A stretch of 64,000 bases of DNA from Prorocentrum cordatum (Eukaryota > Sar > Dinophyceae > Prorocentrales > Prorocentraceae), in NCBI GenBank assembly GCA_963575745.1, contig CAUYUJ010014558.1, positions 271,731 to 335,730 on the forward strand, read 5' to 3'. The position numbers and the translations under genes are program-made. Numbering within the stretch: the stretch's first letter is position 1; every line of letters begins with the position of its first letter. Below, one piece after another: positions 24,106 through 34,043 of the stretch. The notes beneath the pieces are model-generated. The model did not search any database, had not been told where the DNA came from, and saw nothing but the letters and a program-made list of their open reading frames with translations.

Positions 24106-24690
24106 AGGCCGAGAAGGCCGCCTCAGGAGGGCCTTGCTGGAGGGGTTCTTGGAGGTCCGTGGGCCGTCTTGGAGGCCTCTTGGGGGCGTCGTTGGCCTTC
24201 GTGAGGCCAGCTTGGACCGTCTTGGTGGCTTCCTGGGCAAACTTGGATGAACAGTGGGAAACCGACCCCAGCCCCCACAACTATGGATCTTATATGTCAG
24301 CATGTTGCAAACTTGCGGCGAACGCGCGTAAGTGTAGGCGCCTTGTCGGCGAGGCCATTGCCAGCTGCAGCAGGGGGGGGCCCGCGCGCGCGGCGACGTG
24401 CTGAGCCCACTCGACGCAGCCGCGCCCGCGCCGGCATTCCCATGGCCGCGCGTGCCACGGCCGCGGCATGCAGTTTGAGGCGACGGCGGCGCTGTCCCTC
24501 GCACGGCAGCGCCGCTGGCTCAGCCGCTGGCCCCCGCCCCCGCCCCCGTCGCCCCCTCGTAACCCGCCGACGGTGGAAAAGTTTAGATCGGGAGCGTTTC
24601 TCTTGAGGCAACTGTTCAGGAAAAAAACTTCTTGGTCGCTTATATAGGAAAGAGCGTGTTCTAAAGCTGCTGGCGGAAAACCAAGGTGGG
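24106..24690. other. No recognisable gene
   Basis: GC-rich with open frames on both strands but no conserved motif. Confidence 0.5.
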
Positions 24691-24694
24691 GGTC

Positions 24695-25390
24695 AATGGG
24701 GGTTCCCAACCCGGCCCCCCCCCTCGAAAACCGAGGGGGGGGTCACTACCGGTTCGAACCCCCCCATCACCCCCCCCGTCCATCATGAAAAGCGGGGGGG
24801 GTCACTACCGGTTCGAACCCCCCCCCCTCATCGCCGCCCCTCGCCGCCGGCGAAGGATTCCCGCTCCTCGGGACAGTGGGACAGCGGCGGGGGGACACTG
24901 GGACAGTGGTGAGGGCGGCGGTGTGGGGACAGCGGTGTGGGGACAGCGGCGGGGACAGTGGGACACTGGCGGGGGCGGTGGTGGTGGGGACAGTGGCGAG
25001 GGGACAGCAGAACAGATCAGTGGCGGGGACAGAAAGGACAGTGGGATAGTGGTGGGGACGGTAGCGGTGGGGACAGCGGTGAAGGCGGTAGCGAGGACGG
25101 TGGTGGGACAGTGGTGCAGTGGGGAGAGTGGTGAGGACAGTGGGGACAATGGAACAGTTGCGGGGACAGTGGGGGCACTTCTGACCGGTAGTGACCCCCC
25201 TACCCCCGGTTTTCTGGAGGGGGGGGTTCGAACCGGTAGTGGCCCCTCCCCGTTTTCTGGAGGGGAGGGGAGGGGTCGAACTGGTAGTGACCCCCCCACG
25301 GTTTTCTGGAGAGGGGGGGGGGGGTTCGAACCGGTAGTGACCCCCCCCGGTTTCCGGAGGGGGGGACGGGGGAGAGGGTTGGGGGGGGGG
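24695..25390. repeat. Inverted GGTTCGAACC repeats flanking a GGGACAGTGG minisatellite
   Basis: Left side: two copies of GTCACTACCGGTTCGAACCC at about 24,742 and 24,801. Right side: four copies of the reverse complement (GGGTTCGAACCGGTAGTGAC type, one mutated) at about 25,180-25,350, spaced by CGGTTTTCTGGAGGGG. Between them, 24,880-25,180, a minisatellite based on GTGGGGACAGTGGGACAGTG. The arrangement is that of a mobile element or expanded array with inverted ends. GGTTCGAACC also resembles a tRNA B box, but no A box or cloverleaf is visible. Confidence 0.7.
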
Positions 25391-25610: not shown

Positions 25611-25612
<2 letters not shown>

Positions 25613-25696
25613 TTGAGATTCTCATGGGTTTTATCTCGTCCCCCCTCCGTCCTCGAAACGATCTCCTCTAAACCGCCTCTCCGTAGCCGCCTCGGC
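25611..25696 (+). repeat. Split direct repeat A1 of element 3
   Basis: 86 bp from CCTTGAGATTCTCATGGG to CCGTAGCCGCCTCGGC, identical to 33,607-33,692 apart from one base (CGAAACGATC versus CGAAAAGATC). Confidence 0.9.
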
Positions 25697-25701
25697 TTAA
25701 G
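25680..25701 (+). other. Spliced-leader-like sequence at the end of A1, element 3
   Basis: Begins TCCGTAGCC and ends CGGCTTAAG; 17 of 22 positions equal the dinoflagellate SL, and all five differences are transitions. In A2 only the first 17 bases are kept, so the full match exists only on the gag side. Confidence 0.5.
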
Positions 25702-25813
25702 GGTGCGGGGGTCCCCAGAATGACCCCCTCCGAGGAGCCCGCGCCCGACTGAGCTCCCCCCTCGGCGCCTGGGGGAGCTCGTCAGCCCGCGCCGCCGCGG
25801 CGGCGGCACGGCC

Positions 25814-27643
25814 GTGGCGATGTTCGGCGCCGCGGGGGCTGGCGCGGGCGCCCCGCCTGGCCCGCCTGGGTTGGGCCCTGGCGGGGGGCTCCTCGGCGTT
25901 GGCGGCGGCGGAGCGCTGGGCGGCTTTCTGGGGCTGCCGCCTGGCGTCGGCGCCCTGCTCCCGCCGCCGCCTGCCGGAGTGGCCGCTGGAGCTGCCGCGG
26001 CCGCGGGCGGAGCCGCCGCAGGCCCCGCAGCACCAGGAGGCGGAGGCAAGGCGGCGGCGAAGCCCGGGATGGGCGGCAAGGGCGGCATGGGCGGCATGGG
26101 CGGCCCAATGGGCGGCATGGGCAAGCCGCCTGCCGCCCCGCCGCCCGCTGCAGGACGCGGCAGAGGTGCCGGCGCTGGAGCAGGAGCGCCAGCGGCCATG
26201 GGGGGCCCCGTGGTGCCGGGCCTGATCCCAGGGATCCCCGGGGTGGGAGCCCTCGTGGGGCCACCCGCTCACGCTGGGGGTGGAGCCGGCCTCGCCGTGG
26301 CAGGGCAGGCCGCCCACGCGGTGCCAGCCGCCGCCGCGCCTGTGCCCTTGGGCTGGCAGGCGGTCATGCCCGTGGCGGGCGGGGCGCTGCCGCAGTTCGG
26401 AGCGGCGTTCGCCCAGCCGGCGGTGGCGGGGGTCGCGGCGGTGGCGCAGCAGGTTGGGCCGTGGGTATACGTGCCCATGGCGCCCCAGGCGGTGACCCAC
26501 GGCCTCCTGGGGCTGAGTGCCGGTTGCCGCGTCGAGCTGGTGATGTACGACGCTGCCTGCCAGCCGAGCGGGACGACGACGATGACAGTGACAGGGCTCT
26601 ACCCACCTGACGCGGCAGGGGAGTTCGTGGAGTGCACAGTGGAGAGCAGCAGCGACCCTCTCTACCTGCCGATCCTGCAGGGCATCTTCGCGATGGGAAG
26701 CAGCGTGGTGCACCTCTGCACCCAGGGCGTGGCGACATGCTGTCGCACGACCTCTTGGCCAGGGCGCAACGTGGTGCACTCGGACACGCTGCGCGTGCTG
26801 GGGGCGGCCGGGCCTGGAGGCGGAGCCGCTGATGGCGCTGGAGCTGCCCCGCCTGGCGCCCTCCCTGCAGGAGCTGCGCCGCCCGCCGCTGACGCAGGCC
26901 CAGTGGTGCCGGGTAAGAACGCAGGTGGAGCTCCCAAGGGCTCAGGCGGTGCCGACGGTGACGACGTCGATGGCAAGACGGCCGAGGAGATGAGGAAGAT
27001 CGTGAATAGGCTGAAGGAGAAGCTTCAGAGGAAGCGCTCGATGGGCGAGGCGCTGGCCGAGCGCGCGGAGGCTGCGCTGGAGGGCCGCCGCAGCCGCAAG
27101 AAGCAGAAGAACAGGGACAAGGATAGTTCTGACAGTGCAAGTTTTGACGAGGCCCCGACCGCTGGTTCCGGCCGCCGAGTGCAGAAGCTGGCCCGCTCCG
27201 ACCCTGGGGCGCTCATGGCTGCGGGTTTGAAGCAGATCCGTGAATACTTGGCGCAGCGGGGCGGGGCCGACAACGATGATGAGCTGGATAAGATGGCGTC
27301 CAACGTGGTGCAGTACATCACGAGCGTGTGGCATGGCATGCACCCTCAGAGCGAGATGGGCGTGCGGAATGTGCGCGAGATGAGGATGGTCGGGGAGTGC
27401 CTGGACGCCCTCACGAGGGGCGATCTACCACAGCTGGGCGACATGCTGATGCAGAGGCTGAAGGCCATCGAGCAGGCCACCAAGGACGGGCACTGGAAGG
27501 TGGCCGAGCACCTCGAGCTGGTCGACTCCACCGACATCGGGCTGGCCAGCAGCGCCGAGGTGTCGGCGGCCGTGGCGACCTACTCGGAGGGCGCGAAGCT
27601 GAAGGAGCGCTTCACTCGGGCGGGCGCGAGGAGGCCCCCCTAG
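25814..27643 (+). CDS. Gag-like protein of element 3
   Basis: 609 residues from ATG 25814. Residues 1-210 are Gly/Ala/Pro-rich (PPGPPGLGPGGGLLG; MGGKGGMGGMGGPMGG) and likely disordered. Residues about 215-310 form a compact Cys-containing domain (WVYVPMAPQAVTHGLLGL ... GIFAMGSSVVHLC). After a second linker comes a basic coiled coil (EEMRKIVNRLKEKLQRKRS, then RRSRKKQKNRDKD), and residues about 445-600 are helical and capsid-like (GLKQIREYLAQRG, MRMVGECLDALTRGDLPQLG, HWKVAEHLELVDST). No zinc knuckle is present. Position and composition indicate the structural RNA-packaging protein; I know no named domain in it. The frame ends at TAG 27641-27643 and continues in phase beyond it. Confidence 0.7.
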   Translation: MAMFGAAGAGAGAPPGPPGLGPGGGLLGVGGGGALGGFLGLPPGVGALLPPPPAGVAAGAAAAAGGAAAGPAAPGGGGKAAAKPGMGGKGGMGGMGGPMGGMGKPPAAPPPAAGRGRGAGAGAGAPAAMGGPVVPGLIPGIPGVGALVGPPAHAGGGAGLAVAGQAAHAVPAAAAPVPLGWQAVMPVAGGALPQFGAAFAQPAVAGVAAVAQQVGPWVYVPMAPQAVTHGLLGLSAGCRVELVMYDAACQPSGTTTMTVTGLYPPDAAGEFVECTVESSSDPLYLPILQGIFAMGSSVVHLCTQGVATCCRTTSWPGRNVVHSDTLRVLGAAGPGGGAADGAGAAPPGALPAGAAPPAADAGPVVPGKNAGGAPKGSGGADGDDVDGKTAEEMRKIVNRLKEKLQRKRSMGEALAERAEAALEGRRSRKKQKNRDKDSSDSASFDEAPTAGSGRRVQKLARSDPGALMAAGLKQIREYLAQRGGADNDDELDKMASNVVQYITSVWHGMHPQSEMGVRNVREMRMVGECLDALTRGDLPQLGDMLMQRLKAIEQATKDGHWKVAEHLELVDSTDIGLASSAEVSAAVATYSEGAKLKERFTRAGARRPP

Positions 27644-28198
27644 GGACTCGGCGAGGGAGAGGGTGGGCGCACCAGGACGCCCTCTCCCGCACCGCCGCCC
27701 CCACAGATATCGAGTCCTGGAGCACAGGGGGAGAAGGATGCGCCGACGCCCGGATCGAGGAAGGACCGGTGGAGGGCGAAGCTCTGGCGTGGACGCGGCC
27801 GAGGGCGAGGTCGCGGTCGCGGGGACGCTGTCGAGGCAGTGAGGAGAGCGTCGCCGAGCCCGGCAGCCGGGACAGGCGCTGGCGAGAGATCTGGGAGCCC
27901 GAGGAGCCCGTCGTCCCACTGGCGGCCAGCACCTGGTTCGATCAGCCCTGGAGTGGATCGCAAGCCGGCCCTTCGGAGACCCTCGAGCCCTACTCGTCGC
28001 GTGAGGTTCGAGGACGACGTGACCACGGAGGCGAAGGCAGGCAACAAGGGCAAGCCGAAGGGCGACAAAGGACAGCGCCGCGGGACGCCACCTTGGCGCT
28101 CGTGGAACCCGAAGGGCAAGGGCGGCACGAAGGGACAGGCCCGTGGCAAGGGCAAGGACAAGGGCCAGGGCAAGAGGCCCAACAAGAATCGGAAGTAG
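27644..28198 (+). CDS. Basic gag tail, in phase after an internal TAG
   Basis: The same frame as gag stays open after TAG for 184 codons and ends at TAG 28196-28198. It has Arg/Gly repeats (WRGRGRGRGRGRGD, near residue 50), then PSSPTRRVRFEDDV and a Lys/Gly tail (NKGKPKGDKGQ; KGKGKDKGQGKR). This is a typical nucleic-acid-binding end of gag. Either the TAG is read through, or the tail is made by reinitiation, or TAG is a recent point mutation in an otherwise intact element. Pol starts 5 nt after its end. Confidence 0.6.
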   Translation, partial: GLGEGEGGRTRTPSPAPPPPQISSPGAQGEKDAPTPGSRKDRWRAKLWRGRGRGRGRGRGDAVEAVRRASPSPAAGTGAGERSGSPRSPSSHWRPAPGSISPGVDRKPALRRPSSPTRRVRFEDDVTTEAKAGNKGKPKGDKGQRRGTPPWRSWNPKGKGGTKGQARGKGKDKGQGKRPNKNRK

Positions 28199-28203
28199 AA
28201 TGC

Positions 28204-31200
28204 ATGAGCTTCGAGGGCGCTCGAGAGGCGTGTGACTGCACGTCCGACGGCAGCTGGGAGTCCGAGATCACCTTCTCCTCGTACCTTGAGGATGAGTGCA
28301 ACGGCGCCGCTCATGGCGCAGTCTCGGACGAGCCGTCCACGCGAATTCACGACTATCCCTACTTGAACCAGACGCGTGCCGCCAGTGAGCTGGGCAGTCT
28401 CTGTGGAGCTCCAGTTCGTGTTGTTGGACGCCGTCTAGCTGATCTCAGTACTTCTTCGCCCGCGTCGAGCGGGGCACTTGGCAATTTTGATGCGAAATCG
28501 CACGATGATATCCTCTCACCACTGACCGCAGGGAACGGACGGCGCGACCTGCTGCCGTTGCCCTGCGTCGATCTGACGATCGAGGAGTTGAGCATGAACG
28601 GCGTCGTGTTCGGCGAATCGAAGCCAGTCGATCCCTCCTTCGAGGACGACCTGAACGGCTGGCTGAAGCTCACCGTCCTGAGCCTGAACTTCCAGTACGC
28701 GCTAGGGGGCAAGCACCCGGGTCTCAAGATGGCCCCCTGGAAGGTGAGGCACGGGCCCGCCAGCGCGGTGCAGCTGAAGGCCCTGAGGTTGCTGGCCAGG
28801 AGTGTGGGCACGTTTTTGTGCCAGTACGAGGGCTCCGTGGCGAACCTCGACTGGACCCAGGAGCTGAAGTCGTCGGCAGTGAGCTACACGGGCATGGAGG
28901 TGTACCCAGCCGAGCAGCTGGACCGCGAGCGCCTCTTGCTCGCCCTGCCGCCGAAGGAGGCTTGCGGCTCGGTGCTGGCGACCGAGGTGAGCGAAGGATG
29001 GATAAGGAGCGCGCTGGAGCACCCGGAGTGGGTGATGAAGAGCCCCGCGGAGCTGGGCGAGATGCCCAAGACCCCGCGCGTCTGGGCCGAGGACGACGAG
29101 TGGGAGCTCATCGCGGCCGAGCTCGTGAACAGGGGCATCCTCGTCCCGATCGAGGCCGACGAGATCGTGAAGGTCAAGGGCCGTCGCGTGCTGGGCGGCC
29201 TCTTTGGTGTACGAAAGTCGGGACACGCCAAAGGCTCGGGGCCGCAGCGGCTGGTGATGAACATTATCCCGAGCAACTGGATGCAGGAGACGGTCCAGGG
29301 GGACATGGGTCTCCTCCCGACGACAGACAAGTGGAAGAGCATCATCTTGAGGAGCGGCGAGGTGATGATGAGCTCGTCGGAGGACCTCAAGTGCTGCTTC
29401 TACGTGTACCGGTTGCCCGCGGCGTGGCACAAGTACATGGCGCTCTCCAAGAAGGTGAGCAGGTCCTGCATCGGTCTCGACGGGACCGGCGAGGTGCACG
29501 TGGCCGCGGCCGCGATCCCGATGGGCTGGGTGTCGGCGACAGGCATCATCCAGCACATCCACCGGCGGCTGCTTCGTGAGTGGCTGGAGGGAGTGCCTCC
29601 GCTGCCCGAGGATCGTGAATTGCGGCGTGACCTTCCTCTACCTCCACATCGCGAGAGGGGCTCGGTGGTCTCTCAGGGCGAGGCGAGGCCGCCGGTGCGA
29701 GGCGAGCTGGGCCGATCCTACAGCGACGAGCGCCCACAGGTGTACATCGGTCGCACAGGGCAGCGGTACGGCTTCTCCCCCTCCAAGTGGGCGAACCCCT
29801 TCAAGGTGACGAAGATGATGCCGAGGAGCGAGGCCATCGCGAACTACGAGAGTCACCTGCGCGACTCGCCCGATCTGCTGGCCTGCTTGCCCGAGCTCTC
29901 GGGCTGTCGCCTCCTGTGCCACTGCAGGCGAGGGCAGCGCTGCCACGGGGACGTGCTGGTCAAGGTGTGGTCGGAGACGGTGCCGAAGGCGACGAGCGGA
30001 GTAGACACGCTCATGGCGGAGGGTGCTGGTACGGCTTGCTGGGTAGTGTGGCAGGTGTACATCGACAACCTTGACGTGCTGGAGGTTACCGACGAGGTCT
30101 CCGCGGCGGCGCTGAAGGCACAGGGCCCCCCCGAGGTGGTGCAGCTGGCTTGCGAGAGGTGCGCGCAGCGGGGCGTGCCCAGGAGCGAGGATAAGGCAGT
30201 GTGCCGCGAGCCTGTCAGTCAGGCCTTGGGCGAGCTCATTGACGGCACGAGGGGCGTGATCAGCCCGCCCCTGGAGTTCGTGCACCGCCTGCTGGGCCTC
30301 ACCTTCGCCACGCTAGAGCGGAGTGTGCTGACTCAGACTTGGCTGCAGGTGGTGGCGGGCCGCTGGGTGCGAGCGATGATGTTCAGGCGCGAGACGATGT
30401 CCGTGTTCGACGACCTGTGGCGTGCCGTGGTGCGCTGGAGAGGCGAGCGCAGGTTGCCCGCTCCCGTTCAGAGGGAGCTGCTGCTGGCCGTGGGGCTCCT
30501 GCCGCTCATGAGGTGCGACCTCAGGACGCCCGTGAGCGGGCTCGTCACCGTGTCCGACGCCAGCATGCGCAAGGGGGCGGTGTGCCGGGCTGTGCGCCTG
30601 CTCCCACACGGCGTTGAGGCAGCCAAGGCTTCTCGCAGGCGCCAGGTGGGGCGGCTGCAGGACGAGGGCGTGCTGCTGTCGCTCTTCGACGGGATCGGAG
30701 GTGGAAGGCGGGCCCTCGACATGCTGGGGCTGAGCGTGGCCGTGTATGCCGCGTCGGAGACGGACCCAGAGGCCTGCCGCGTGGTGAAGTACGCGTGGCC
30801 GGACGTGGTGGAGCTGGGCGACGTCACAAAGCTGAGCGCGCAGGACATCGCCAAGATCCGGGACAGGGCCCCGCACGTGCGCTGGGTTCTCCTGTTTGCT
30901 GGAGCCCCCTGCGTGGACCTCACCAGGCTGAGCGTCGACAGGCAAGGGCTGTCAGGAGCGAGGTCGGGCCTCTTCTACGAGATCAAGCGGGTGAAGTCGC
31001 TGGTGAAGGAGGTGTTCTCCGTGGAGGTCGAGGTCTTCGACTTGATCGAGAATGTGTCCTCCATGACGGCCGAGGATCGCGACACGATGTCAGAGCACAT
31101 GGGGCTGACCCCGGTGATGATCGACGCCGCCGACATCTCACACGTTCGCCGAGAGAGGCTCTACTGGTGTGACACCGACCTCATGACGCCGTGGCAGGGC

Positions 31201-32301
31201 GAAGTCAGTGTGAAGAGCGAGGTGGTGAAGGTGACGATCCCTGGAGGTCCAGGCCCGCTGGGCCGCTGGCTGCGCCCTGGGCGAGAGTGGTCAGGAGCCG
31301 AGGTTCCTGAGCAGCGGCTGCCCACCTTCGCGAGGTGCATCCCGCGCGGGCGTGCCGGCGACAAGCCGAAAGGCCTGCACCAGTGCAGCGAGGCCGAGCT
31401 GGAGCGTTGGCGGAGGCACGACTTCTGCTACGCGCCGTACCAGTTTCGAGATCCTCACTGTCTTCGATGGCAAGGAGGTGCGCTGGAGCCTGCCGACTCC
31501 TTTGAGAGAGAGATGTTGATGGACTTTCCACCTGGGCACACGGCGACAGCGCGGGCCACAAGATTCCGCAAGCTGGCTGAGCTCGAGGTGGTACGATGCG
31601 CCCTGCTGGGCAACTCGTTCCAGTGCGGCGTGGTGGCCTGGACAGTGGCGCACTGGGCTCACCGACACGGCTACCTGGACACGGTCCCCACGATAGCGGA
31701 GGCGCGCGCCGTCGGAGGCGCCTTCGACGCTGCCGAGGGCCTGGTGCAGGTGGCCAAGGAGGGCGACGACAGCGGGGTCGTGATCAGGGACCGTGGCCTC
31801 GAAGAGGCCGAGGCGCAGGCGGACCCAAGCATTCAGATCGTGGAGGAGCTGATCCGGCGAGCTGAGGTGAGGGGCTCGGACGTGCGCCTCGACACGCTGG
31901 AGGTCATGCGCCCTGACTTGTGGCCACGCCGCCCGATCAGCGTGAGCCGCTGGACGTGGAAGACAGTGCTGGTCTGGAAGTGGAGGTGGAAGAGCCACAT
32001 CACGGCGCTGGAGGTGCTGAGCACGCCGGCAGGCCTTCGCTGGCGCTTCAGAGTGGGCCATCACCTTGGCACGAGGTTCGCTCATCTGATGGATTCGCAG
32101 GTTGGACTTGGTGTGATATCGCGGGGGCGCTCTTCCTCGCATCTGCTCAACGCAGCCGTCAAGAGGATCTCAGCTCTGGTCCTGGCGGCGTCGGCAAGAC
32201 CGATTTACGGGTACACCGAGACGGGCAAGAACCCAGCCGACGACCCTTCGCGGGAAGGCGGCCCGTCAGGTGACAGCAATGCCGAGGAAGCGTCGCATTG
32301 A
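28204..32301 (+). CDS. Pol: RT, DUF4326-like, RNase H and DNMT3-like methyltransferase
   Basis: 1,365 residues from ATG 28204, the first Met after the gag tail stop; the frame is open further upstream but there it overlaps gag. RT: GLFGVRKSGHAKG and PQRLVMNIIPSNWM (about 335-360), motif A SSEDLKCCFYVYRLP (about 390-405), motif B AAIPMGWVSATG (about 435-446), motif C QVYIDNLDVLEV (about 616-627). Between B and C lies a DUF4326-like domain (about 510-590). RNase H acids: VTVSDAS (about 784), HITALEV (about 1266), LMDSQVG (about 1297), NPADDPSR (about 1346). Between the first and second of these lies a C5 methyltransferase (about 820-1150). Acts on element RNA and cDNA. Unbroken. Confidence 0.85.
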   Translation: MSFEGAREACDCTSDGSWESEITFSSYLEDECNGAAHGAVSDEPSTRIHDYPYLNQTRAASELGSLCGAPVRVVGRRLADLSTSSPASSGALGNFDAKSHDDILSPLTAGNGRRDLLPLPCVDLTIEELSMNGVVFGESKPVDPSFEDDLNGWLKLTVLSLNFQYALGGKHPGLKMAPWKVRHGPASAVQLKALRLLARSVGTFLCQYEGSVANLDWTQELKSSAVSYTGMEVYPAEQLDRERLLLALPPKEACGSVLATEVSEGWIRSALEHPEWVMKSPAELGEMPKTPRVWAEDDEWELIAAELVNRGILVPIEADEIVKVKGRRVLGGLFGVRKSGHAKGSGPQRLVMNIIPSNWMQETVQGDMGLLPTTDKWKSIILRSGEVMMSSSEDLKCCFYVYRLPAAWHKYMALSKKVSRSCIGLDGTGEVHVAAAAIPMGWVSATGIIQHIHRRLLREWLEGVPPLPEDRELRRDLPLPPHRERGSVVSQGEARPPVRGELGRSYSDERPQVYIGRTGQRYGFSPSKWANPFKVTKMMPRSEAIANYESHLRDSPDLLACLPELSGCRLLCHCRRGQRCHGDVLVKVWSETVPKATSGVDTLMAEGAGTACWVVWQVYIDNLDVLEVTDEVSAAALKAQGPPEVVQLACERCAQRGVPRSEDKAVCREPVSQALGELIDGTRGVISPPLEFVHRLLGLTFATLERSVLTQTWLQVVAGRWVRAMMFRRETMSVFDDLWRAVVRWRGERRLPAPVQRELLLAVGLLPLMRCDLRTPVSGLVTVSDASMRKGAVCRAVRLLPHGVEAAKASRRRQVGRLQDEGVLLSLFDGIGGGRRALDMLGLSVAVYAASETDPEACRVVKYAWPDVVELGDVTKLSAQDIAKIRDRAPHVRWVLLFAGAPCVDLTRLSVDRQGLSGARSGLFYEIKRVKSLVKEVFSVEVEVFDLIENVSSMTAEDRDTMSEHMGLTPVMIDAADISHVRRERLYWCDTDLMTPWQGEVSVKSEVVKVTIPGGPGPLGRWLRPGREWSGAEVPEQRLPTFARCIPRGRAGDKPKGLHQCSEAELERWRRHDFCYAPYQFRDPHCLRWQGGALEPADSFEREMLMDFPPGHTATARATRFRKLAELEVVRCALLGNSFQCGVVAWTVAHWAHRHGYLDTVPTIAEARAVGGAFDAAEGLVQVAKEGDDSGVVIRDRGLEEAEAQADPSIQIVEELIRRAEVRGSDVRLDTLEVMRPDLWPRRPISVSRWTWKTVLVWKWRWKSHITALEVLSTPAGLRWRFRVGHHLGTRFAHLMDSQVGLGVISRGRSSSHLLNAAVKRISALVLAASARPIYGYTETGKNPADDPSREGGPSGDSNAEEASH
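29730..29970 (+). other. DUF4326-like domain nested in RT
   Basis: VYIGRTGQRYGFSPSKWANP, MPRSEAIANYESHLRDS, ACLPELSGCRLLCHC and QRCHGDVLVKVW reproduce the DUF4326 signature: YIGRxxxxxxSKWANPF, a helical middle, LxGxxLxCxCxxxxxCHGDVL. The domain sits after RT motif B (29,513-29,545) and before motif C (30,050-30,085), so it splits the palm. Its biochemical function is not established to my knowledge. The conserved Cys/His could bind metal or nucleotide. Confidence 0.75.
30664..31660 (+). other. DNMT3-like C5 cytosine methyltransferase domain nested in RNase H
   Basis: Motif I LLSLFDGIGGGRRALDMLG (SAM binding), motif IV AGAPCVDLTRLS with the catalytic Cys, motif VI FDLIENVSSM with the Glu that contacts cytosine, motif VIII HVRRERLYWCD, a recognition region with HDFCYAPYQFRD, then FEREMLMDFPPGHT and CALLGNSFQCGVV (motif IX/X region). 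PCxDL and LFYEIKRV after it resemble DNMT3 rather than DNMT1. All key residues are present, so it is probably active. Expected reaction: transfer of methyl from SAM to C5 of cytosine in DNA, perhaps the element's own cDNA. Confidence 0.85.
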
Positions 32302-33235
32302 TTATGAGATAGACTTGGTGTCCCGCATTCGGGTACGACGCGCGATTGGCAGATTATCACACACACTAGTTCAACCTCGTACGTTTCGCAGATATGGTCA
32401 GATGGTGCAAAGCTTTGTCTCTTGGATTCGTGCCCATGGTATCGACGTGGCCACTGACCTGGAGCAGCTCGATTTTCAGTTATGTGAATGGATAGAAACG
32501 CTATGGGCGCATGGGAGGCCTGCTGGAGATGCTGGGGCCACTTTGTCTGGCGTACAGTTCTTCTTGCGACGCAAAAGAGTGCTTCACAGTGCGTGGAGCT
32601 TGCTGAAGGCTTGGCAACAGACTGAGATGCCACAAAGAGCACCACCCATGCCAGAGTATGTGCTGATGTCACTTGCCACGGTGGCTCGGTCCTGGAGTCG
32701 AAACGACGTGGCGGTGCTTCTTGTGATTGGCTACTCTGTGTTTTTGCGAACAATGGAGCTTCTTACTCTTCGTAAGTGGCAGCTGCAGTTCAGCAACGAC
32801 GGCCTCAGCCTTGTCATAGCCCTGCCGGTGACCAAGGCAGGCAAGAGACGGCACTGCGAGGAGTCGGTCACGCTCCACGACGCTAGGATTGTTCACTTCG
32901 TCAGAGTGCTCACTCAGCATTTGCCGCCTGAGAGCTCTTTGCTGCAAGGCACCGTGCCCGAATTTCGCGATGTGTTCAGAGCTCTCTTGAGGTCGTTGAA
33001 CCTGGAGCGGCACGGATATCAAATATATTCTTTACGCCGCGGAGGTGCCACCACTCACTATAGAAGATTCGAGAACATGGGCTTGACTTTGATAGTTGGG
33101 AGATGGCAAGATACCGCTGTGGCCAGACTGTACATCAGTGACGGTGTGCAAACTTTGCTTCAGAACGATTTCTTGCCTGCAGAATTGGAGCGATTTCGTG
33201 TACTGGCGAGTGCTCTTAACTTCGATGTGGGATGA
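32279..33235 (+). CDS. Tyrosine recombinase (YR integrase) of element 3
   Basis: 318 residues from ATG 32279; the ORF overlaps the pol end by 23 nt in another frame, and an in-frame GTG lies 9 nt upstream. An N-terminal SAM-like helical region (TFRRYGQMVQSFVSWIRAHG) precedes the catalytic domain. Visible catalytic elements: Arg in VFLRTMELLTLRKW (about 156), a Lys in TKAGKRRH, box II YSLRRGGATTHY (about 250-260; Tyr where His is usual), WQDTAV and the nucleophile in ARLYISDG (about 284). It would integrate the circular DNA form of the element by site-specific recombination, in the manner of DIRS/Ngaro elements. No frameshift or stop. Confidence 0.85.
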   Translation: MPRKRRIDYEIDLVSRIRVRRAIGRLSHTLVQPRTFRRYGQMVQSFVSWIRAHGIDVATDLEQLDFQLCEWIETLWAHGRPAGDAGATLSGVQFFLRRKRVLHSAWSLLKAWQQTEMPQRAPPMPEYVLMSLATVARSWSRNDVAVLLVIGYSVFLRTMELLTLRKWQLQFSNDGLSLVIALPVTKAGKRRHCEESVTLHDARIVHFVRVLTQHLPPESSLLQGTVPEFRDVFRALLRSLNLERHGYQIYSLRRGGATTHYRRFENMGLTLIVGRWQDTAVARLYISDGVQTLLQNDFLPAELERFRVLASALNFDVG

Positions 33236-33345
33236 GAGAGTGAAAAGAGGGAGCAAAATATCTGAGCAGCTTCGCTGTCAGCATTCTCCGGACCCTCCCC
33301 ACCCGTCCCTGGGAAATAATGGCGGTAAACCAGAATGGGGTGCAT

Positions 33346-33599
33346 GGAAAGGGGTCCCGGGGGGGGTTCGGACACGCGTCGCGCGCTGCCGCCCTCACCC
33401 GAGGGGGTTCGGACTCGCGTCGCGCTGCCGCTCCCGGTTAACTCCGAGGGTTCGGACTCGCGTCGCGCTGCCGCCCCTGGCCAGGCTTCGGAGTCCCCAG
33501 AGGACATGGGGGGGGGTCTCCGCTGGCAGCCCCCCTGTAGCACAAAACCCCTGGTGAGAGGAGTAAAAAGGAGATGGACGAGGAAAGGGGACACAGAGA
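33346..33599 (+). repeat. Split direct repeat B1 of element 3
   Basis: 254 bp, from GGAAAGGGGTCCCGGGG to GGGGACACAGAGA, equal to 33,790-34,043 except one base (GGAGATGGAC versus GGAGAGGGAC). Contains three internal TTCGGAC(T/A)CGCGTCGCG subrepeats. Confidence 0.9.
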
Positions 33600-33606
33600 T
33601 AAATAT

Positions 33607-33692
33607 CCTTGAGATTCTCATGGGTTTTATCTCGTCCCCCCTCCGTCCTCGAAAAGATCTCCTCTAAACCGCCTCTCCGTAGCCGCCTCGGC
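33607..33692 (+). repeat. Split direct repeat A2 of element 3
   Basis: Copy of A1. It is joined to B1 by only seven bases (TAAATAT), which gives the B-A junction expected from joined element ends. A unique 97-bp spacer separates it from B2. Confidence 0.9.
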
Positions 33693-33789
33693 CCCGCCCT
33701 GAAACCCTGCCCGAGCCGAGTTGGCTAAAAGATGTGCCGAATTCGAGCCATCTGAGGATGCGCTGAAGCCGTCCCAGCAGGAGTTGGAG

Positions 33790-34040
33790 GGAAAGGGGTC
33801 CCGGGGGGGGTTCGGACACGCGTCGCGCGCTGCCGCCCTCACCCGAGGGGGTTCGGACTCGCGTCGCGCTGCCGCTCCCGGTTAACTCCGAGGGTTCGGA
33901 CTCGCGTCGCGCTGCCGCCCCTGGCCAGGCTTCGGAGTCCCCAGAGGACATGGGGGGGGGTCTCCGCTGGCAGCCCCCCTGTAGCACAAAACCCCTGGTG
34001 AGAGGAGTAAAAAGGAGAGGGACGAGGAAAGGGGACACAG

Positions 34041-34043
<3 letters not shown>
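33790..34043 (+). repeat. Split direct repeat B2 of element 3
   Basis: Right terminal copy of B1, followed directly by (TA)n at 34,044-34,092. Confidence 0.9.

Follow-up and report, generated by a model that had tools for sequence, protein, structure and literature searches.

What kind of mobile element brings its own DNA-methylating enzyme into the genome of the bloom-forming dinoflagellate Prorocentrum cordatum, and what else does it carry? We address this question at one locus, a stretch of 64,000 nucleotides of contig CAUYUJ010014558.1 (the window), in which the existence of a tyrosine recombinase (YR) retrotransposon at 25611-34042 is confirmed. Overall, we read it as a DIRS-group element with PAT-like repeats, akin to SymbioDIRS-Dnmt3 and with the life cycle proposed below, and assign this whole model a probability of roughly 0.6. 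The initial annotation had described an intact, recent YR retrotransposon carrying its own cytosine methyltransferase, and the copies, frames and repeats reported here bear out this description and its multicopy nature. The parts follow in the order A1, gag, an in-frame TAG, a basic tail, pol, YR, B1, core, A2, spacer and B2, with open gag, pol and YR frames and with split direct repeats in the plan A1-ORFs-B1-A2-B2 (ORF, open reading frame; Table 1). The earlier anatomy is thus right in outline; it passed over a DUF4326 domain in the reverse transcriptase (RT), the location of the element in (AT)n and the conserved TAG of gag.

In pol, the profile scans find RT as far as motif B, then DUF4326 (PF14216), RT from motif C onwards, a first piece of RNase H, a C5 cytosine methyltransferase (MT) and the last piece of RNase H; RT, RNase H and the methyltransferase are all present as first annotated, but the MT lies within RNase H and not after it. 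The DUF4326 match scores 60.4 bits against a Pfam gathering cut-off of 25. Motifs B and C are 158-180 residues apart in P0001, P0006, P0009 and P0011, and 52-86 residues apart in 10 relatives without DUF4326 there (P0014, P0016, P0018-P0022, P0025, P0030, P0034), the exceptions being three incomplete gene models which fall in neither range or in the wrong one (P0012, 109; P0015, 122; P0032, 51). In the AlphaFold2 structure predicted for the pol core (1156 residues, from 24 rows; mean pLDDT, the predicted local confidence, 85.4; predicted TM-score 0.76), DUF4326 is flanked by an RT helix (250-263) on one side and by the YIDN hairpin (418-435) on the other, whereas MT (about 619-964) is flanked by RNase H strands (587-604) and the remaining RNase H (1055-1142). 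RNase H is identified by motif and model only, and the DNA methyltransferase (DNMT), which shares the ORF with RT, is assigned to the Dnmt3 type. To our knowledge, a polymerase bearing one enzyme in the RT palm region and another in RNase H is unusual. In addition, two distant pol relatives without a recognised DNMT, P0037 and P0038, have a methyltransferase-like stretch (FIEVFGGAG and APPC by eye) between their RNase H pieces, so that RNase H may have acquired an MT-like insert long ago.

Table 1. Features of the element, with positions in the window
Feature	Position	Strand	Basis or remark
A1 terminal repeat	25611..25696	+	Differs from A2 at 1 of 86 bases; immediately preceded by (AT)n
gag ORF, first ATG to in-frame TAG (27641-27643)	25820..27643	+	TAG in 19 of 20 readable elements
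Basic Lys/Gly-rich tail, gag frame, past TAG	27644..28198	+	
pol ORF, first Met to stop	28204..32301	+	
RT fingers/palm through motif B (PMGW)	28969..29655	+	Profile scan; model; relatives match HIV RT by profile
DUF4326 (PF14216), between RT motifs B and C	29710..29994	+	E 2.8e-16, 60.4 bits; model
RT motif C (YIDN) and remainder of RT	30034..30516	+	Profile scan; model
N-terminal part of RNase H with the first catalytic Asp (SDAS)	30517..30627	+	Motif; model
Dnmt3-like C5 cytosine methyltransferase, within RNase H	30652..31641	+	Profile scan; model
C-terminal part of RNase H, with Glu, Asp and Asp read from motifs	31810..32256	+	Motif; model
YR ORF	32279..33235	+	Motifs; Cre profile match
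B1 internal repeat	33346..33598	+	
Junction core ATAAATAT, B1/A2	33599..33606	+	Identical in 18/20 elements
A2 internal repeat	33607..33692	+	
B2 terminal repeat	33790..34042	+	(AT)n immediately right

This type of carrier is known from related algae. The main text of de Mendoza et al. (2018, PMC5890265) describes SymbioDIRS-Dnmt3 of Symbiodinium, in which Pol includes a DNMT of the Dnmt3 type, the tyrosine recombinase has an ORF of its own and the repeats follow the plan A-coding-B-A-B. Our element shares with it all of these features, RT in Pol, the absence of significant CG depletion (the observed/expected ratio of CpG is 0.93 both for the element and for each flank, giving no sign of self-methylation) and purifying selection on the DNMT, and the two Pol domain orders described for SymbioDIRS-Dnmt3 match the window type and the MT-first relative P0036. 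Because SymbioDIRS-Dnmt3 was published with a DNMT and the same repeat plan, the YR carrier itself is not new, and the initial annotation, while right that the element is real, overstated the novelty of this plan. The hosts differ, Symbiodinium in one case and P. cordatum in the other; no named Symbiodinium proteins are among the matches of our protein searches, which were limited to proteins sharing short words. DUF4326 does not occur in that main text, and the parts of it consulted mention neither an RNase H in two pieces nor a target site or a TAG in gag. Within the parts of Szitenberg et al. (2014, PMC4157794) consulted, PAT/Toc3-type DIRS elements have split direct repeats, and RT, MT and YR in the same orientation, as here; gag here has no zinc finger by eye, also like these elements. 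The MT is a Dnmt3-type C5 cytosine enzyme within RNase H, whereas the main text of PMC5890265 gives the classical DIRS MT as adenine-type. RT, RNase H and a tyrosine recombinase together with the split repeats A1, B1-A2 and B2 mark a DIRS-group element, and Ngaro, defined in the same parts of PMC4157794 as having no MT domain, is ruled out by the MT. In the titles, abstracts and partial texts searched, we found neither MT inside RNase H, DUF4326 in RT, the (AT)n location nor the conserved gag TAG.

The element is present in many copies. A search of the genome (4,128,499,153 bases in 21,875 contigs) with a 1.1-kb MT query gives at least 40 places including the window, with identities of 94-100% (40 of 126 candidates scored). 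The initial annotation had proposed to count near-identical copies and to search with the pol protein: at least 39 copies besides the window are found, at 94-99%, and the pol protein matches a Prorocentrum cordatum protein at 97% identity. Comparing two match lists, 39 of those 40 MT places recur among 150 scored PF14216 places, and the one absent, L108, carries an insert in the domain. Among 20 copies, gag is without stop or frameshift in 17, pol in 15, YR in 19 and all three in 14, where runs of N in two copies (in the aligned stretch, 410 in L099 and 2,864 in L100) mean that the open frames of these two are not fully read. Mismatches within the repeat pairs of the copies number 0-2 for A and 0-4 for B. 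The split direct repeats are complete in 17 of the 20 copies on other contigs, which rules out an assembly duplication, and these related copies have no long terminal repeats (LTRs) in their place; an LTR retrotransposon is ruled out by the split repeats together with YR, and no integrase appears in Pfam scans of the ORFs. The YR frame (32279-33232) has a third-position G+C content of 0.57 compared with 0.76-0.92 in the pol domains, a hint of a different history for YR.

Selection was then estimated in 21 elements (the window and 20 copies) from variants common to at least two elements, with the per-codon majority as reference and a single kappa throughout; the copies are those 20 of the 39 that rank highest in similarity and thus represent the younger half. 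The resulting omega is 0.18 for gag, 0.18 for MT, 0.11 for YR, 0.11 and 0.19 for the RT pieces, and 0.09 and 0.00 for the RNase H pieces, the C-terminal one having 0 nonsynonymous and 11 synonymous variants.

A second feature of the copies concerns gag. The TAG at 27641 is present in 19 of 20 readable elements, with CAG in L096 and N in L100, and the tail frame after it has no stop in 21 elements (L100 being partly masked). We favour a putative read-through of this TAG over a -1 shift; a short Gag would be made together with a long Gag whose basic tail may bind nucleic acid. The surroundings of the TAG could instead be a -1 frameshift site (CCCCCCUAG) fusing Gag to Pol: each of the 20 elements counted has an open pol frame over 27643-28197, and wherever the TAG is present, so is its context CCCCCCTAG. 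However, judged by omega, the shared variants over the tail (27644-28198) suit the gag frame (0.49) more than the pol frame, where they are unconstrained (1.26; contrast P 0.06), and we consider a frameshift improbable. No paper on gag read-through in YR elements was found in the literature search, which is weak evidence of absence.

The ends of the copies point to where the element inserts. Left ends adjoin ATATATAT in 17 of 19 elements and never ATAAATAT, while right ends are A/T-only across 8 bases in 18 of 20, the right flank starting with ATAA in 14 of 20 and ATAAAT in 11 of 20; the internal junction between B1 and A2 reads ATAAATAT in 18 of 20. The 55,210 window bases outside the element contain 3 tracts of (AT)n of at least 8 bases. 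The pattern of the three junctions looks like recombination of a circle by YR into (AT)n, and the asymmetry of left and right ends suggests a crossover towards the A side of the core. The formation of a circle in which one A and one B unit are joined is the established model for YR elements. For our element, Pol would copy the RNA, one A and one B unit would be joined in circular DNA as in the observed B1-A2 junction, and YR would recombine the core ATAAATAT with a host (AT)n tract, after which the B side would retain ATAAAT and the A side gain ATATATAT from the host. Both flanks are (AT)n, which would mask a target-site duplication. Alternatively, the element itself might generate the tracts, if its ends slip or are extended; this would agree with the AT-like nature of the core ATAAATAT and with the variable length of the tracts, and no empty sites were seen. 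The two flanks of a single copy differ, however, in length and interruptions, several tracts run into other simple repeats as host microsatellites do, and the asymmetry of ATATATAT on the left and ATAAAT on the right fits a recombination crossover, so that we hold self-made flanks to be very unlikely. If the (AT)n footprint is true, this YR retrotransposon has a simple, common target, useful for dating and assay. No paper on an (AT) target in YR elements was found in the literature search, again weak evidence of absence.

On the new copy, MT, held in RNase H, would methylate CpG of the nascent DNA, as suggested by its place in Pol and by the de novo activity already published for DNMTs of retrotransposons. 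DUF4326, in the RT loop by the catalytic YIDN hairpin, would be a captured conflict-type enzyme domain beside MT on the replicating complex, perhaps acting on ADP-ribose-type marks or signals, which is the weakest step. In this way, DNMT-carrying YR elements gain a testable life cycle, including a landing site, circle joining and other cargo.

It is of interest to discuss DUF4326 further. In phages and large DNA viruses, according to the parts of PMC9503650 and PMC7824862 consulted, it is predicted to process ADP-ribose derivatives and is fused to SLOG, Macro and NADAR domains and restriction-modification parts. The domain here is the same one, keeping 11 residues invariant in 70 aligned rows; unlike the viral proteins it is nested in the RT of a eukaryotic retrotransposon. 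Modelled alone with 69 viral homologues, it reaches a pLDDT of 89.6; no convincing solved structure or fold relative was found. Membership in the rhodanese-phosphatase superfamily has been proposed for DUF4326 in PMC9503650. Among the titles and abstract openings of the papers naming DUF4326, none concerns retrotransposons, and PF14216 by that name gave no paper in the literature search.

As for its distribution, profile scans of 35 pol proteins (the window and P0005-P0038) find DUF4326 in 19 and MT in 32; all 19 DUF4326-bearing pols have MT, a co-occurrence which is not unbiased because the search was seeded with a pol bearing both. DUF4326 lies between the RT pieces in 16 pols, a 17th (P0033) being without the first RT piece; in P0019 it is downstream of MT, yet ahead of the RNase H end, and in P0036 it is inside MT. 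The P0036 stretch upstream of it matches PF00145 positions 4-110 and the whole N-terminal MT profile, and the downstream stretch matches PF00145 positions 275-322 (E 0.016) and gave no match to the custom C-terminal MT profile. In the RT tree, 15 DUF-in-RT proteins split from 15 others (support 82.1/88), with P0019 among the others; the DUF4326 tree, with few columns and an unsettled bootstrap, separates 9 retrotransposon rows from 80 viral rows (branch 89/92, 86% of bootstrap trees). Based on the two trees, the simplest reading would be one dinoflagellate DUF4326 lineage placed at different pol sites, independent captures from outside not being established. Retrotransposon pol relatives in viral contigs amount to one weak match, and a protein search seeded with the P0036 DUF region recovered P0036 alone.

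Such a lineage might be a passenger, entering tolerant pol loops by chance with no MT-linked work. Its omega weighs against a strong role of DUF4326: among the copies it is 0.73 (12 nonsynonymous, 7 synonymous; P 0.0019 for the contrast with RT, RNase H and MT combined), which speaks against strong recent constraint. Moreover, the retrotransposon rows cluster together, and 13 of the 32 MT-bearing relatives are without the domain. Chance capture is made plausible by the number of PF14216 places, which is at least 150 for this genome (150 of 302 candidates scored), 111 of them outside the window family by comparing the two lists. On the other hand, all 11 residues invariant in the 69 viral homologues are kept in the window and in every one of the 20 copies but one, which lacks a Cys, and over longer distances DUF4326 is conserved about as much as RT and MT: its identity is 51% to P0009 against 59/55/55% for the neighbours (RT and MT among them), 46% to P0011 against 53/56/50%, and 42% to P0019 against 36/34/38%. 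We regard a passenger as possible and somewhat doubtful. The opposite proposal is equally tentative and would go beyond the captured domain of our model: MT and DUF4326 may be a functional pair, assembled more than once by YR retrotransposons at three Pol sites (the RT loop, after MT in RNase H, and inside MT). The pair would then correspond, on mobile DNA of eukaryotes, to the modules with which phages modify DNA and counter defences: MT would mark the copy, and DUF4326 would act on new DNA or a host NAD/ADP-ribose alarm. Repeated joining of the two in pol, if true, would give the first indication of what DUF4326 does in eukaryotic mobile DNA.

Several observations were made beside these. A pattern search of genome contigs for DUF4326 gave 19 fitting stretches, of which 0 were confirmed. 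Outside recognised elements, a degenerate stretch resembling a methyltransferase (FLEVFGG by eye) precedes DUF4326 at L110 1486-1740 and L111 1489-1746, 3.2-kb loci in which neither the RT, MT and YR profiles nor a Pfam MT model match; at L112 1552-1803, also in no recognised element, DUF4326 has the GCWC form typical of viral homologues and is possibly a host gene. Domains that occur in one ORF with DUF4326 in viral contigs are uracil-DNA glycosylase (L066), SLOG families (L040, L070, L031) and, by a weak match, DNA polymerase A (L065). The PF00145 search of the genome has 3,988 first-look candidates, of which 123 were scored, the window family not being among those scored; both PF00145 and PF14216 families are greatly expanded in this genome. 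Finally, a G/C-rich cluster of inverted and direct repeats is located at 24685-25348, just left of the element.
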